From assembly GCA_037974965.1 (NCBI GenBank), contig JBBPFI010000001.1, positions 1,364,001 to 1,428,000 on the forward strand: 64,000 nucleotides of DNA, in the 5' to 3' direction. Shown one piece after another: positions 54,870 to 64,000 of this stretch. The stretch's first letter is position 1. Each line of letters begins with the position of its first letter. A program made the position numbers and the translations under genes. The stretch comes from Dacryopinax spathularia (taxonomy: Eukaryota > Basidiomycota > Dacrymycetes > Dacrymycetales > Dacrymycetaceae). The notes under the pieces are model-generated. The model worked only from the letters and a program-made list of their open reading frames with translations. It made no database searches and was not told the origin of the DNA.

Positions 54870-57499
54870 TCACTGTAGGCCTTGAAGAACGTCCATGTTA
54901 CCGCCCAGCACGTCGTATCCGCTTGGGAAATGAGCATCAAAGACATTCTCGATGAGCGTATCGTTCCAGAACGAATCGGATACGTTTGACGGGCCGAGCA
55001 TATCCGAGATTGTGAATTGGGGCTCGCCAAGTACTTGCGCGGCCCATTGGTAGTCCGGCATGGGCTGATGCACGTTTTGGTGATATTCAATTGGGGGAGG
55101 TGGCGGAACATGGTCGGCTGGGATGGGCAAGCGGTTGTCAGGAGTAATGACCTGGGCAGACGGGGCGGAGCTGTCATCGGCTTGAGAAGCAGAGGAGTCC
55201 TCGTCGCTATCTGCTGGGCTGGGCTTGCGAGGAATATGGATTGAGGTGCCATAGAAGGGCAGATTGAGCGTTTCGCCATCGACAGCCCCGGGCGGGGGAG
55301 GCAAATTACGAGCAGCCATGCACCGTGTGCGCAAGATGTCGAGTCCCTTTACACCCTCCAGGGCGACCACATTCTCGCTGCCCATGTTAAGGAGAAGGTC
55401 GCGGGCCATCTCGACCCACTTGTCCAGGTCATCAGCTTGCGGGTCGGTCGGGTTTTGCAGAATAGCCGCGCATAGTGTGGCTGCGAGAGCATGTCAGCGC
55501 GTCCTCTGCTCAAGCAACAGAAAAGACATACCTGCAGGTTCGAAAGTCCTGAATGCCAACATGAACCACCTGAGCTGTGCCTTGGAAATAGTGCTTTGCA
55601 GCAGATGCTGAGCCGAAAGCAATTTCTTGCAGTTGAGGATGCAAGCAGCACGCGAAGTCTTGAAGAATTCGGCAGTGCGGACTGCATTCTGCTCGTCGTC
55701 CATGTCCATATCCTCATCTGGTGGGTTCCGCAGCAAGAATGGACGCTAGGAGGTGACGAGTCAGTAAATCACGGTATGCAGCAGAACTCGAAATGACTTA
55801 CATGCAGAGCAATCCTAGTCGACTGAAGGTTCATCATCATCATCTGGCTCTGGTACGCGAGGTACGGCCTCTCCAGCGCATCATTCGCGCTCTGGCTCCG
55901 GAAGTAATCCGGTAAATTGCGCTCAAACTCGTGCAGGGCGCTATCCAGCTCCAGCACGGTGCGATACGTCGGGGGCCGAACGCCAAAGCACTCATCCGCA
56001 ATCCTGCCGACGATCTTGCTGTAGTAGATGTTCAGGATCTGGTACGAGTAGTGCGTTGGGATCGAAAGTGGCTTGTCCTCCAGCTTGTCTGCGTCGACCA
56101 GCTCGTCATCGTCGATGTTGAGCGGGAACCGCACATCGCAGTGCTGGTCATGGATGACATACGGCCGGCCAAGAGTCATGTTCTGGCACCGGTCGTACGA
56201 GTATAACGCCCACCACATCCTTCGGCGAAGCTCGGCTTCGAGGGGCCTCATACCCCATTTGCCCTCCCCGTCCCTGTGCATGCCCATGCTCTGCGCAATC
56301 CGGATGGCAGCACCAATGATGCTGTAGTTGTCGGTTGCACTGCCCTCGTTCTTGCTATAGATGGCGACGAGGAGCATGGTCTGCAGCCGCTCTAGCGTGG
56401 GGTTTTGTTCATGCTCAGAGGTAGCGAGCGTCATGCGCGAGAAGTTGAACAACTTGGCTCGTAGAGTCTCACGATCGGTGCCCAGTTCTGGAGGTACATC
56501 AACCTATGCCATTGTCAGCTGCCGCACTCTGGGGAGACTTTTGCATAAACGCACCATGAACCTCTCCATCTCCGAATCAAGCAAGAACTGAAGTGCACTA
56601 GCGCACATAACCGCCAAAAGCGCCACGAAATCCAGGTTGTCTGGCTCATCTTTGGTCCAGAACTGGACATAGCTCCTATCGAACGTCGGCCGGTGGACAG
56701 TATCATACAGCCAGTTAAGCGTCGAATTTCCGAAGAAGTGGTTGACGAGGTAGTCGGTGACGTGCCGAGGCGGGAACTGGGGTCGCATGTCCGGCCTGCC
56801 GGAGTGATCGACATCTCCTGGCTTGGGGAATGGCGCATATACCGAGCCAACATGCGATTCGTTTGGCTGCTGAGGGAATCCAATCTTGTTCAGGAAATCC
56901 GCGACTGTGCCGGGCCCAAGGTAGCTCGTGCTGCCACCAGCGGCCGCGGCCGCCACGCTCGCCGCCGTCGGTGCATGGCCGTTCGCAGGAGAGTTGCCTG
57001 CGCTGCCGTTCGTCGGGTACGGTCCATCCCTACCCAACCTGGCCTTCTTCCGTCCTCTCACCCCTCCAGAAGGTACAGGTGCAGCAGGCTTGGTCTCCAT
57101 CACACACTTGTCCGCCATACCGCGCTTCACGCAACGAGAACATGGATTGCCTCGGTCGCACTGCTGTTTCCGCCTGTGGCATTCTGTGCATGAGAGTGTA
57201 ATTCGATTGCGCTTCTTCTTGGATGGCTGGCCACCACCTGGCGATAGTGTGTGCTTGGGGGCGCCCGTTGCACCATTGCTGTTGCCATTCGCGCCGAGAG
57301 CACCGGAACTCTCCGTGGGACCGGTGCCGTTCGAGGGAAGAGGCGGAGGATGCGACGGCGGGCCGCCTGACACAGACGCTGGTGTGATGGGCGAAACACC
57401 TGCACTAGCTGCCAGCGTTGACGCTGCGGACGGTGCGCTCGAAGGGTCAGACGGTGCCGCCGAGGGTAGGGCGGACACGGGCGAAACGAGGGCCGACAT
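54870..57499 (-). CDS. Zn2Cys6 transcription factor
   Basis: A fungal-specific regulator of about 823 residues with exons 56555-57499, 55802-56503, 55532-55745 and 54870-55480. The binuclear zinc cluster near residues 103-131 reads C-x2-C-x6-C-x5-C-x2-C-x8-C (CTECHRRKQQCDRGNPCSRC ...). The N-terminus is Pro/Ser/Ala-rich. The Fungal_trans middle region begins around residue 270 (FFGNSTLNWLYDTVHRPTFD) and has RMWWALYSYDRCQNMTLGRP and a DVRFPLNIDDDEL motif. The C-terminus is acidic, Pro-rich and could activate transcription. It lies immediately upstream on the same strand side of a carboxylesterase array and has the same orientation, so a regulatory link is possible but not shown. Confidence 0.92.
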
Positions 57500-57963
57500 C
57501 GGCGTTTAGAGTAGAGGTAGAGATATGGCGGAAAGCTTGTAGAGGTGCACAAGTAGCTTAGAACCGTCCGCCTTTGGCTCGTCAATTGCCGAGCAAGTAT
57601 ATGCGGTACAATCCAGCCGGCAGAGCGTACAAGATACTGAACGATGTGGTGGGGGCGCTGGTCGACGAGGATGAAGCGTTGAACGGCGACGAGGGTGTTC
57701 AAGCCGCTTACCAACGGCTCGACGGCGGCGAGCTCGGAGGGGCACTCGACGTTCCAAGATGGCTCACCTGATTGGTCAACAAATACATGGAAGCAGTTAT
57801 CACATAAGCTGATTTGATTCCGGTCCAATGGCCGACGACTTCGGTTGGCCGACGATACCGGGTATTTCCGGGCTGGTCGCCAGTTGTTGGAGGGGCAAGC
57901 GTCTCTCCTCTTCGGCGAACAACTTAGAACAACAAGATATAGATTCCGTATGGCTACGGTTGA
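57500..57963. other. Intergenic region upstream of the transcription factor
   Basis: About 460 bp between two minus-strand genes; holds the regulator's promoter and the 3' flank of the first carboxylesterase. No gene recognised. Confidence 0.5.
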
Positions 57964-60132
57964 CTAGTTGCGGATAACATCTGTCCTCGAATGCAGCCAA
58001 TCGCAACGATCGCTGACATCCCAGTCCTTCACCACACCGATCTGAGTGAAGTTGATCTGCATCGCGTTGAAACCGTCGAACCCGGCGCTAATGTTTGAGT
58101 ACTGCGGGAAGTAGGGCTTGCTCTGTCCCGAGTAGTTCTCCGCGTTCGGATCCAAGTGGACGGTGAAGGAAACGAACCAGTCACGGAGCGTAAGGCCGAT
58201 CGTGTGGTTGTACATGTACGTGCCTGATGAGTCGTTAACGAGGGAAAAGAGCGGCGAAAGAGACTCCATACCATAGTTATCTTGGAAGTAAACGTACGGC
58301 GAGGTCGCGCCATGTACCTCGCTACCGGCATAGAACAACACCTTCCACATCGGTAGACCAGCATCGGACACGGCCGACGCGAGCCAGTAAGTCGGGCACT
58401 CAACGATAGCATCGCCGAACACTTGGGCACGATGATAGAATGTGCTGTTGAAGGCATCGACGGGATACACTTCGTACATCCTGTTCCAGAAGGAAGGGCC
58501 TGCGTTAGGCCAGATCATGGAGAGATCGGCCATCTCCGCTTCCGTGCTATTGGCGATGGATGAGTTGGAGAACGGCACGCCTGTCCTTCTAGATCAATGC
58601 AAAACCCCGCAAGAGAGATTCGCGTGCATACCCTCTGTGACACATATAAGCTACAAGCTCAGGAACATGCGTGGAAGCGGGACATACCATATCCATCGCG
58701 ATCTGCGAGCACCGGGACTTTGGTAAAGTGACCAGCCTGGAATTCGTTGCTCGGCTATTTCCCCTCAGTATCGCCCATCGTCACACGATCACTCATACTC
58801 ACAAGATCCCGAATGATATTCCCATCCACAGCAGGTCCCAGCCAGTAGTCGCCATACCCATACCCGTCGGCGGCCTTGTATGCGTTCAGGAATGCCTTCT
58901 GTGTCGCAATGGCCAGGGAGGTCTCGTTCAGGCTGCGCAGGCAGGCAAGCGTGCTGCACCCAGCCGCGCTGTACAGGTACTTGAGCTGCGTCGAGAGGAC
59001 AGAGTCGTTCTTAAAGCTTTGCCACCCTGTTTATGTTGATCAGCACAACACAGGTGATGACTTTCAAATCACTGACATGGATATTCTAAAGGGGCGTGAG
59101 TTAAGGCATGGTGCATACATAGGCAAGAGCCTTACGAGTAATAACAGCGCGGAAAGGCGGGTTTGGCACCCCGCCGTACATGATCATCTGCCAAGCATTA
59201 GGGCTGATATCGCTTGCGGTATTTCAAGCACACCTGGGTCATGACAGCCCCTCCACCAGCAGAGCCTCCCAGAATGGTGATCTTAGAAGGATCTCCGCCA
59301 AACGAGGATGCATGCCTGCGACAATCTCAGCAAGCGCTCCCACACCCATCACGCAGAGACTTGCCTAGTCAACCAGTTCAGTGCTGCGCGCTGATCTAGC
59401 AGACCAGCATTGGCGGTGCCGTCCAACTGGATTTCGGGCCCGCTAAGGAAGCCATAGAAGCCCAGACGGTACTGAATTCCAACGAAGATGAAGGCGCCCT
59501 TGCTCTGGCTGATCATGACATCCCCGGAACCTTGGAAGGATTCGCCCTGTGCGAGCTGCTTAGGAGATATATGGACGTGGAGCAAGCATTGCACACCTCT
59601 GTATACCCGCCGCCGTGGATGAACACCATGATAGGCAGAGCCTGCGAAGCAGGGTGTGCGGGCACCTGGATGTTCAGCAGCAGACAGTCCTCCGCTCCGG
59701 TTGGGAGCGCGCTGATGTTCCCGGAGGTGGACCAGACTGGGACACCCTGCACGCATGTGGGCCTAACGTGGCATCAGCACAGATTTCTTGGTTCTTGGTA
59801 GGTACTCCGTACCCAAAGGCTGTGGCATTGATGATGCCTTGGCTTGCATAGTTGTTGTTCACCTCGATATCGACGGGAGGTTGCCAACGGAGGTTTCCGA
59901 CCGGCGCCTGGGCAAAGTAGATGCCATTGAAGTTGTTGATGCTGTATGAGGTCGCTTAAACCGGAAGCGAGACATGCAGACAAGCGACGTACTCATCCGT
60001 TGCATTGTACCAGCCCAAGTACTTTGCGTAGCCCAGGTCCAGTACAGGCCCGTTCGAGCTATTCGAAATAGTCGCTGAGACGCTCGTGACGGCAAGAGCT
60101 GCGCCAGCCAGCAAGCTAAGCAGGGATCTCAT
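57964..60132 (-). CDS. Secreted type-B carboxylesterase/lipase (array member 1)
   Basis: A cholinesterase-fold hydrolase of about 556 residues with a signal peptide (MRSLLSLLAGAALAVTSVSA). Exons: 59993-60132, 59813-59941, 59597-59762, 59365-59546, 59234-59315, 59136-59187, 59077-59085, 58803-59026, 58688-58754, 58632-58634, 57964-58580; all keep phase. Family signatures are EDCLLLNIQVP, VFIHGGGYTE, LDQRAALNWL and the nucleophile LGGSAGGGAVM. The catalytic glutamate lies in GYEGVPFSN, with E encoded across a 3-nt microexon; the histidine is probably in VHGATS. One exon is 9 nt. Intron 4 starts with GC. The cell-wall or external substrate is unknown. Two paralogues follow on the same strand. 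Confidence 0.88.
58632..58634 (-). other. 3-nt microexon of carboxylesterase 1
   Basis: The bases AGG lie between a GTCACAG acceptor and a GTATGC donor. The introns on either side are 53 and 51 nt, the usual size here, whereas skipping would need one 107-nt intron. With it the protein reads DGYEGV; without it DGYGV, lacking the glutamate. The neighbouring paralogue has a 4-nt exon at the same place, which supports inclusion. Confidence 0.7.
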
Positions 60133-61037: not shown

Positions 61038-63012
61038 TCAGTTCCGCACTACATAGCTATTGGCATTGAAGAAGTCGCACTGAGGACTGGCGTCAAAATC
61101 GGTGACGATGCCCATGGAGGCGTAAGTGACGTCCATTGCCAGGAAGCCGGATCCATCGTTGTAGGCGCTCCAATAAGGCTTGGGGATCTCCGTGAATGAG
61201 ATCTCGTTGGGGTTCAAGCAAATGGTGAAGGACAGGTACCAGTCCTTCATGATTGGGCCCGTATTGATGGCTTGCACCGAGTGAGAAAGGATGTAAACTG
61301 AAGCGAGGACGACTCACCGTCGTTGTGGGCACTGTATAAATACTGGCCAGTAGCACCATGCTCCTCCGTACCAGCGTAGAACAAGAGCTTGTAAGCGGGC
61401 AAGCCAGCATCGGCAACCGCCTTTGCCATGTAATACGCAGGGCAATCGATGATGAAGTCACCGAACCACTGAGCACGATGATAGAACGTGCTGTTGTAAG
61501 CAGACTCCGGATAAAGCTCATACAAGCGGTTGATGAATGACGTTCCGGCATATGGGAAGAGCTTCTTGAGATCGGCAAGTTCTTCGCTCTGCGTAGTCAT
61601 AGATCGGTTGGAGAAGACCACACCTATGGACGTGTCAGATGCGTCTGTATGCAAGGAGTGCGGCTCTGACCTTCCTGGAGAGGAGATGAGCATGCTTCTT
61701 CAATATGAGAGCGAGGTACTCACGTATCCATCCCGGTTTACCAACAACGGCACCTTGGTGAAATGGCCTTGCTTGAACTCATTCGAGGGAAGATCACGGA
61801 TTGTCACCAAGTCCACCGTCGGCCCGAAGTAGAAGTCGCCGTATGCATAGGATCCCGCCGCGTACGCATCAACATAGACCTGCTGGCTCGCAATAGCGAG
61901 GGCGGTCTCGTTCAATGCACGCAGACATGCGAGAGTGTCGCAGCCGGAAGTTGTCAAGAGTTGACGGAATTGAATCTCGGCCTGGGATTCGTTCTTGAAT
62001 GGCTGCCACCAGGGATATTCTGCACAAGCGCGAGAGTCAGAAGCAGATTCAGACAGGATGGAGGCGGAGCTACCGGCTATTGCGGCGCGGAATGGCGGGT
62101 TCGCCACACCACCGTATAAGATCATCTGGGATCACATAAGAACAGTTCACCACGCAAGATGCTATCTTGCCTGTGACATGACCGATCCACCGCCTGCACT
62201 TCCTCCGATGATCGTGATCTTGCTGCTATCACCACCGAACGAAGACGCGTATCGTGCTACCCACTCGATGGCTGCCCGTTGGTCGAGAAGCCCAGCATTG
62301 GCGACACCATTCTGCCTGATTTCGTAGCTCGACATGAAACCATATACGGAAAGACGATATTGAATAGCCACATAGATGATGTTGCCTTTGGATTGCTGGA
62401 TCAGATAATCTCCAGGGCTTCCGTCACCGTTGCCTTCGGTATATCCTGACAACCATATATGTCAAGAACCCCACAAATCAAAGAGGGATCTGCCTACCTC
62501 CTCCGTGAATCTGGAGAAGAATGGGCAGGGACGCGTGGGCGGGGTTCGCGGGAGCCTGAATGTTTAGCAGGAGACAGTCCTCAGAGCCAGCAGGCGGCAG
62601 AGCGTAGCTCCCGTTCCCCGCCCAAAAGGGTACACCTTGGGTACATTCAGGTCTGTTAGTTGCCGTAAGGTTTCTGGTTCGGCTTAGGACAGAGATCATT
62701 ACCCGACGACTCCAGCGTAGATAGCGCCTTGAGCTGAATAGTTGTTGTTTAGCTCAATGGCTTGAGGAGGCTGCCAACGCAAATTGCCAGTAGGCTGAGC
62801 CAATCGAATAAGAACGTCAACTTATACGTGATCGACTAGAGTGAACTCACTGCCTGGGCATACCGAATCCCGTACCAGGAATTAACGCCAGACGATGCGT
62901 TGTAGACACCTTCATACGTCGCATAGGGAAGGTTGAGGAGAGGTCCACCCCAAGCGCGAACGAGAGGCAGTCCAGCGACAACGGCCGTCAAGATGAGGTT
63001 TCCGATGCCCAT
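61038..63012 (-). CDS. Secreted type-B carboxylesterase/lipase (array member 2)
   Basis: A paralogue of the gene to its left, about 524 residues. Exons: 62851-63012, 62703-62794, 62498-62652, 62171-62445, 62074-62125, 61724-62019, 61671-61674, 61318-61623, 61038-61270. A start nine codons upstream (63039) is in frame, but the signal peptide reads best from MGIGNLILTAVVAGLPLVRA. Signatures: SEDCLLLNIQAP, LLQIHGGGYTEG, LDQRAAIEWVARYASSFGGD, IGGSAGGGSVMSQ (Ser nucleophile). The catalytic glutamate is in DGYEGVVFSN, its codon lying on a 4-nt exon (GAAG). The histidine is likely in EEHGATGQY. The intron after exon 4 begins with GC. It lacks three introns present in member 1 and has one that member 1 lacks. 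Confidence 0.88.
61671..61674 (-). other. 4-nt microexon of carboxylesterase 2
   Basis: The bases GAAG lie between CTCCAG and GTCAGA, with 49- and 47-nt introns on either side. Without it the flanking exons are out of frame with each other (TAC in phase 0 and GT GTG GTC). Its codon GAA gives the family's catalytic glutamate. Confidence 0.8.
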
Positions 63013-63673: not shown

Positions 63674-63954
63674 TCAATTGAATACAGACAAACTTTGTCC
63701 ATGCCAGAAATCGCACTTCGGCGAGGCATCAAAATCCTCCACCACTCCGATCTCCGTATAGTTTACGTCCATGACATTGAAGTCGAAGTTGCCACTCATG
63801 TAAGCAGGCCAGTACGGCTTGCTCACATTTGACCATGATTGGACATTCGGGTCAAGATGGGTGGTGAACGAAAGCCACCAGTCTTTCATTGCGTTTCCAA
63901 GAGTGATGTTCGCGCCGGGTCCCGGTACGTTGTCTCCGGGAATAGTGGCAGACC
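63674..63954 (-). CDS. Type-B carboxylesterase (array member 3), last exon only
   Basis: Only the last exon is visible; the gene continues beyond the right window end through an intron whose acceptor (GTTTAG) lies at 63955-63960. The 93-residue segment aligns with the C-termini of members 1 and 2: AMKDWWLSFTTHLDPNVQSW, KPYWPAYMSGNF, DVNYTEIGVVEDFDASPKCD. The exon boundary near SATIPGDNV falls where member 2 also has its last intron but member 1 does not. No catalytic residue is in this part. Confidence 0.85.
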
Positions 63955-64000
63955 CTAAACGAGCAAGGTTAGTTCCTCTGAATACACAGTCGTATCTGAT

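Follow-up and report, generated by a model that had tools for sequence, protein, structure and literature searches.

The window analysed here, a 64,000-nucleotide stretch of Dacryopinax spathularia DNA, contained two carboxylesterase genes in tandem on the minus strand, designated copy 1 and copy 2, for which gene models were assembled by hand (Table 1). The copy 1 model had 11 introns of 41-53 nt each, one of them of the GC-AG type, and encoded an unbroken protein of 543 residues. The introns of both copies taken together ranged from 41 to 56 nt in length. The two predicted proteins shared 292 identical residues over 516 aligned positions (57%). A third tandem copy (63674-64000) was represented by its 3' part, cut off by the end of the window before the micro-exon region, and showed about 50% identity with copies 1 and 2 across some 76 residues. 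Downstream of copy 1, minus-strand frames at 55769-57505 contained a cysteine cluster, CTECHRRKQQCDRGNPCSRC, and presumably resemble a Zn2Cys6-type transcription factor.

Table 1. Carboxylesterase genes and the features surrounding their micro-exons (window coordinates).
Feature	Position	Strand	Description
Carboxylesterase copy 1	57964..60132	(-)	12 exons, 543 aa; hand-made gene model, Pfam and PDB matches
Copy 1 exons 1-6	60132-59993, 59941-59813, 59762-59597, 59555-59365, 59315-59234, 59187-59136	(-)	
Copy 1 exons 7-12	59085-59077, 59026-58803, 58754-58688, 58634-58632, 58580-58272, 58223-57964	(-)	
Copy 1 exon 7	59077..59085	(-)	9-nt micro-exon AATATCCAT; part of QYPWWQ
Copy 1 intron 9	58635..58687	(-)	53 nt, GTATGT...CACAG, phase 1; branch-like CTTAT 12 nt before 3' end
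Copy 1 exon 10	58632..58634	(-)	3-nt micro-exon AGG; Glu354 codon bases 2-3 and Gly355 base 1
Copy 1 intron 10	58581..58631	(-)	51 nt, GTATGC...GACAG, phase 1; branch-like TTGAT 13 nt before 3' end
Carboxylesterase copy 2	61038..63012	(-)	Tandem paralogue; 9 exons, 524 aa; hand-made gene model
Copy 2 intron 6	61675..61723	(-)	49 nt, GTGAGT...CCAG, phase 0; branch-like CTCAT 12 nt before 3' end
Copy 2 exon 7	61671..61674	(-)	4-nt micro-exon GAAG; entire Glu345 codon and Gly346 first base
Copy 2 intron 7	61624..61670	(-)	47 nt, GTCAGA...ATAG, phase 1; branch-like CTGAC 11 nt before 3' end

The copy 1 protein matched the Pfam COesterase profile (PF00135) over residues 42-485 with an E value of 8.2e-62 and a score of 210.2 bits (cut-off 27); the BD-FAE and Abhydrolase_3 profiles gave weaker matches. 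Comparison with the PDB yielded 165 distinct sequences at E <= 0.001, of which the best 60 were listed and 5 were aligned. The top match by sequence was 1ukc (E 2.4e-54), the structure of EstA, which we take to be an Aspergillus enzyme, and fungal lipases and esterases are presumably among the other high-ranking entries. Compared as proteins, copy 1, EstA and other COesterases belonged to the same Pfam family, and their catalytic serine and glutamate columns aligned. The nucleophile elbow, G-x-S-x-G, was present in copy 1 as GGSAGG with Ser227. Forty-nine bacterial loci, obtained from one scan of genome contigs, were used for residue columns only, being uninformative on introns, and all 47 that covered Ser227 had a serine there. 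The candidate for the catalytic histidine, His444 in the segment EVHGA, was kept in copy 2; the alignments of 9 of the 49 bacterial loci extended that far, and 3 of those 9 had a histidine at this column. Two scans of viral contigs for relatives returned 1 and 488 pattern matches, none of which was confirmed.

The glutamate of the D-x-x-E-G segment is the triad acid in the COesterase family, as the original prediction had assumed for the second triad residue, and the comparisons agreed with this identity. Glu354 of copy 1, in the segment DGYEGVPF, lay opposite a glutamate in all five PDB alignments displayed (165 matches in all). The EstA triad presumably includes Ser210 and Glu338, an assignment consistent with a constant offset between the residue numbers of copy 1 and 1ukc along their alignment. 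Among the bacterial relatives, 30 of the 38 loci that covered the Glu354 column had a glutamate; the other eight had Asp (3), Arg (3), Gln (1) or a gap (1). The Arg and Gln rows are likely to be misaligned, since a glutamate was found 2-4 columns away in each. Provided that the micro-exon is included, the copy 1 product is predicted to carry the catalytic glutamate in an intact D-x-x-E-G segment, and enzyme activity would presumably be lost without Glu354.

The codon for this residue was completed by a very short exon lying between canonical GT-AG introns. The minus strand of copy 1 read, in order, GATGGATATG, GTATGT...CACAG, AGG, GTATGC...GACAG and GCGTGCCGTTC; placing AGG between exons 9 and 11 gave DGYEGVPFSN in the protein. 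The 3-nt exon and its 53- and 51-nt flanking introns were thus located on the minus strand exactly where they had been proposed. Omission of AGG kept the frame and gave a 542-residue protein in which Glu was the only residue lost, as had also been anticipated, while retention of intron 9 or intron 10 gave truncated proteins of 362 and 366 residues, respectively. AGG is probably included in the mature copy 1 mRNA.

At the homologous place in copy 2, GGATAC was followed by GTGAGT...CCAG, GAAG, GTCAGA...ATAG and GTGTGG, which encoded DGYEGVVF. The micro-exon was, in other words, conserved in the one paralogue compared, with a length of 4 nt instead of 3. The 100-nt gap in copy 2 cannot be a single intron at its borders because the outer exon borders are in phases 0 and 1; omission of GAAG shifted the frame and the protein stopped at 352 residues. 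Protein alignment combined with the list of introns showed that five intron positions were common to both copies in place and phase. One of these was the intron downstream of the micro-exon, after residue 354 in copy 1 and 345 in copy 2, in phase 1. The upstream intron was displaced by 1 nt between the copies, being in phase 1 in copy 1 and in phase 0 in copy 2, and this shift of a single base in its border would account for the 3-nt and 4-nt exons with retention of Glu-Gly. The tiny exon looks both real and old, because copy 2 has a 4-nt exon at the same place as the 3-nt exon of the adjacent copy 1, and on this comparison the exon and the two introns flanking it most likely predate the duplication that gave rise to the two copies.

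The original prediction also held that the micro-exon is the only route to the glutamate. Single introns of at least 30 nt with GT or GC donors and AG acceptors were enumerated in a range around the gap. For copy 1, 88 donor/acceptor pairs were obtained, 9 of which were open in the right frame, and none of the 9 restored E-G; the corresponding numbers for copy 2 were 163 pairs, 15 open in the right frame and none with E-G. The claim was borne out, then, among the single introns enumerated. An alternative internal exon of 9 nt in copy 1, CTTATATGT, was in frame and was rejected: it yielded no Glu and its donor score was 0.7. The likelihood of a chance arrangement was assessed with 5000 dinucleotide shuffles of the gap per copy, with the ends fixed. 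An internal exon of 4 nt or less that restored DGYEG occurred in 15 of 5000 shuffles for copy 1 and in 0 of 5000 for copy 2. When any internal exon no longer than 30 nt that kept the frame was counted, with or without Glu, the numbers rose to 2228 of 5000 and 1373 of 5000 shuffles, respectively. Since in-frame internal exons are so common in shuffled sequence, the rarity lies in the restoration of Glu alone.

Splice sites were scored with a matrix built from the 15 other introns of the two hand-made models, a small set drawn from our own models. In the copy 1 stretch 58700-58570, the donors used were the top two GT sites (7.6 for intron 9 and 5.9 for intron 10), and the acceptor of the micro-exon, that of intron 9, was the highest-scoring AG (6.0). 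The intron 10 acceptor was weak (1.0); AGs 8 and 5 nt upstream, at 58588 and 58585, scored 3.4 and 2.2, and use of either in its place would shift the frame. In copy 2, the two acceptors used were the two best AGs (5.7 and 5.6) and the donors used scored 6.4 and 4.4, the latter belonging to the micro-exon itself; the top GT (6.9), with which exon 8 opens at 61623, was not among the sites used. A branch-like YTNAY was present 11-13 nt before the 3' end in all four introns flanking the micro-exons. At a distance of 10-14 nt, the same motif was carried by 9 of the 15 remaining introns and turned up in 7-13% of the sequences obtained by base-shuffling each flanking intron. Elsewhere in copy 2, the last intron (61317-61271) had an apparent 3' end of CAAG, not C/TAG, with the acceptor CAAG/CC and the next exon starting from 61270.

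The reading that we favour, with a probability of about 0.86, is that copy 1 represents an intact COesterase gene in which an old, constitutive 3-nt exon completes the codon of the catalytic Glu. Splice sites would pair across each of the roughly 50-nt introns, that is, by intron definition, and the two flanking introns would be removed one after the other. The three bases of the copy 1 micro-exon, AGG, and the last three of the copy 2 micro-exon, AAG, form the -3 to -1 part of the 5' splice site that follows, and this site would therefore have the same sequence whichever intron is removed first. Constitutive use, the order of splicing and intron definition in this species are all presumed here. 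It had been suggested that exons this small need unusual recognition. None appears to be required, since introns of 41-56 nt are short enough for pairing across the intron and the exon need not be recognised as a unit.

Related schemes have been put forward for other organisms. In the case of Arabidopsis APC11, with its exon of 1 nt, intron definition and sequential removal of the introns have been proposed (PMC4674806), a scheme that, by analogy, fits the copy 1 micro-exon. The text of the Ganoderma lucidum EST study infers intron definition from a comparison of 246 retained introns with 26 cassette exons (16 in its other count), and describes this cassette fraction as one of the higher fungal values (PMC3642047). 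Intron definition has also been argued for ascomycetes from stwintrons (PMC6616335). In Cryptococcus, alternative transcripts of 741 genes are reported, some of them produced by exon skipping (PMC3990503).

The strongest of the alternatives, unlikely in itself, is that processing is leaky: AGG would normally be included, and in a sizeable fraction of transcripts an intron would stay in or splicing would shift to the AGs at 58588 and 58585. The weak intron 10 acceptor with two higher-scoring AGs just upstream is consistent with such leakiness, as are the truncations that follow retention of either intron. On the other side, the branch-like TTGAT is separated by 5 nt from the nearer AG, which may be ignored on that account. 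The outcome would be non-productive mRNA and less enzyme, with no useful dead form. Leaky processing is compatible with a constitutive micro-exon and the two can hold together.

The original prediction had further proposed that splicing could switch the gene between an active and a dead enzyme, with AGG included or skipped according to conditions and the dead form one residue shorter. Several observations are in its favour, 1) skipping in copy 1 is frame-neutral and removes only Glu, 2) the outer donor is strong and an outer acceptor is present, 3) a glucose-dependent 20-nt microexon is described in Xlr2 of Trichoderma virens (PMC11121469) and 4) exon II of rtnA (15-nt and 33-nt) is described as skipped in Aspergillus niger and Neurospora crassa (PMC6616335). 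Xlr2 resembles the present case in that loss of a microexon deprives a fungal protein of a functional element, and differs in that it encodes a transcription factor, has a longer exon and is documented by carbon-source-dependent RNA evidence; no reads joining exons 1 and 3 were seen in that study, and hence it is not plain skipping (PMC11121469). Three points argue against the switch. With its 4 nt, the corresponding exon of copy 2 cannot be lost without truncation of the protein, so that frame-neutral skipping is confined to copy 1 and is not common to its relative; the micro-exon has the best acceptor in the copy 1 stretch; and retained introns far outnumber cassette exons in the Ganoderma ESTs (PMC3642047). 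The switch was not supported by the analysis and is very unlikely. Regulated skipping that yields a folded, catalytically dead esterase, for example one that only binds, is slightly more doubtful still, and would be open to copy 1 and not to copy 2 because the 3-nt exon alone can be skipped without a frameshift.

It is equally hard to credit that copy 1 has a single 107-nt intron and no micro-exon, and is a Glu-less or decayed enzyme. The segment 58687-58581 does have GT...AG ends and its removal keeps the frame. Nevertheless, an intron of 107 nt would be about twice as long as the longest of the remaining copy 1 introns, the frame of copy 2 cannot be maintained at the same borders without additional exon bases, the same GYEGV is restored in both copies and the rest of copy 1 is open. 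Least credible is a spliceosomal twin intron (stwintron), one intron nested in a splice signal of the other, occupying the entire gap: complex introns of this type occur in filamentous fungi (PMC6616335), but complete removal of the unit did not leave the coding sequence intact, since it shifted the frame of copy 2 and lost the Glu of copy 1. The single long intron and the stwintron were both rejected on these grounds, the frame of copy 2 and the Glu of copy 1.

If the constitutive 3-nt exon is accepted, it joins a known class. Micro-exons in conserved motifs of fungal genes are already known, down to 1 nt. A close parallel is the 1-nt exon of Fusarium CYP621A P450 genes, supported by 18 SRA reads and mentioned alongside an 8-nt Phanerochaete exon (Nelson and Syed 2026, PMC12940212). 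As in copy 1, an ultra-small exon with AG-exon-GT borders lies within a conserved motif of a fungal gene and was deduced from a phase mismatch and an over-long gap. The two cases differ in that the CYP621A exon is 1 nt long, lies in the P450 PKG motif and is shown by reads, whereas the esterase exons are of 3 and 4 nt, complete a catalytic Glu, were recognised from sequence and vary in size between paralogues (PMC12940212). The P450 genes of Phanerochaete chrysosporium likewise have introns of 45-55 bp, very short exons and clustered duplicated genes, with a shortest exon of 6 bp in a different family (PMC1184071). Among more distant systems, APC11 also has a tiny constitutive exon for which intron definition is favoured (PMC4674806), and microexons of 1-15 nt are reported in plants (PMC8831610); these are plant genes verified by experiment or RNA-seq (PMC4674806, PMC8831610). 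Micro-exon 8 of Drosophila homothorax is exactly 3 bp and in frame, and differs in being alternatively spliced from a 48-bp exon in a developmental regulator (PMC7392893). Among the matches listed in a search of open-access titles and abstracts, none described an esterase with a micro-exon at its catalytic Glu.

The significance of the arrangement is that a catalytic residue would depend on an exon whose small size will probably cause gene finders to overlook it, and related genes may consequently be annotated as Glu-less or frameshifted. The tandem paralogues with 3-nt and 4-nt exons also constitute a natural test of how exons of this size are spliced, and of a one-base move of an intron border with the protein motif unchanged.

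Exon 7 of copy 1 was a second very short exon, required for the segment QYPWWQ. Its omission also kept the frame and gave a protein of 540 residues. The matching segment of copy 2, EYPWWQ, was contained in a single exon that had no counterpart of the second intron bounding copy 1 exon 7, and an intron near QYPWWQ has accordingly either arisen in copy 1 or disappeared from copy 2. Each copy also had one GC-AG intron, at 59364-59316 in copy 1 (AG/GCAAGT) and at 62170-62126 in copy 2 (AG/GCAAGA), and the positions of these two introns differed.
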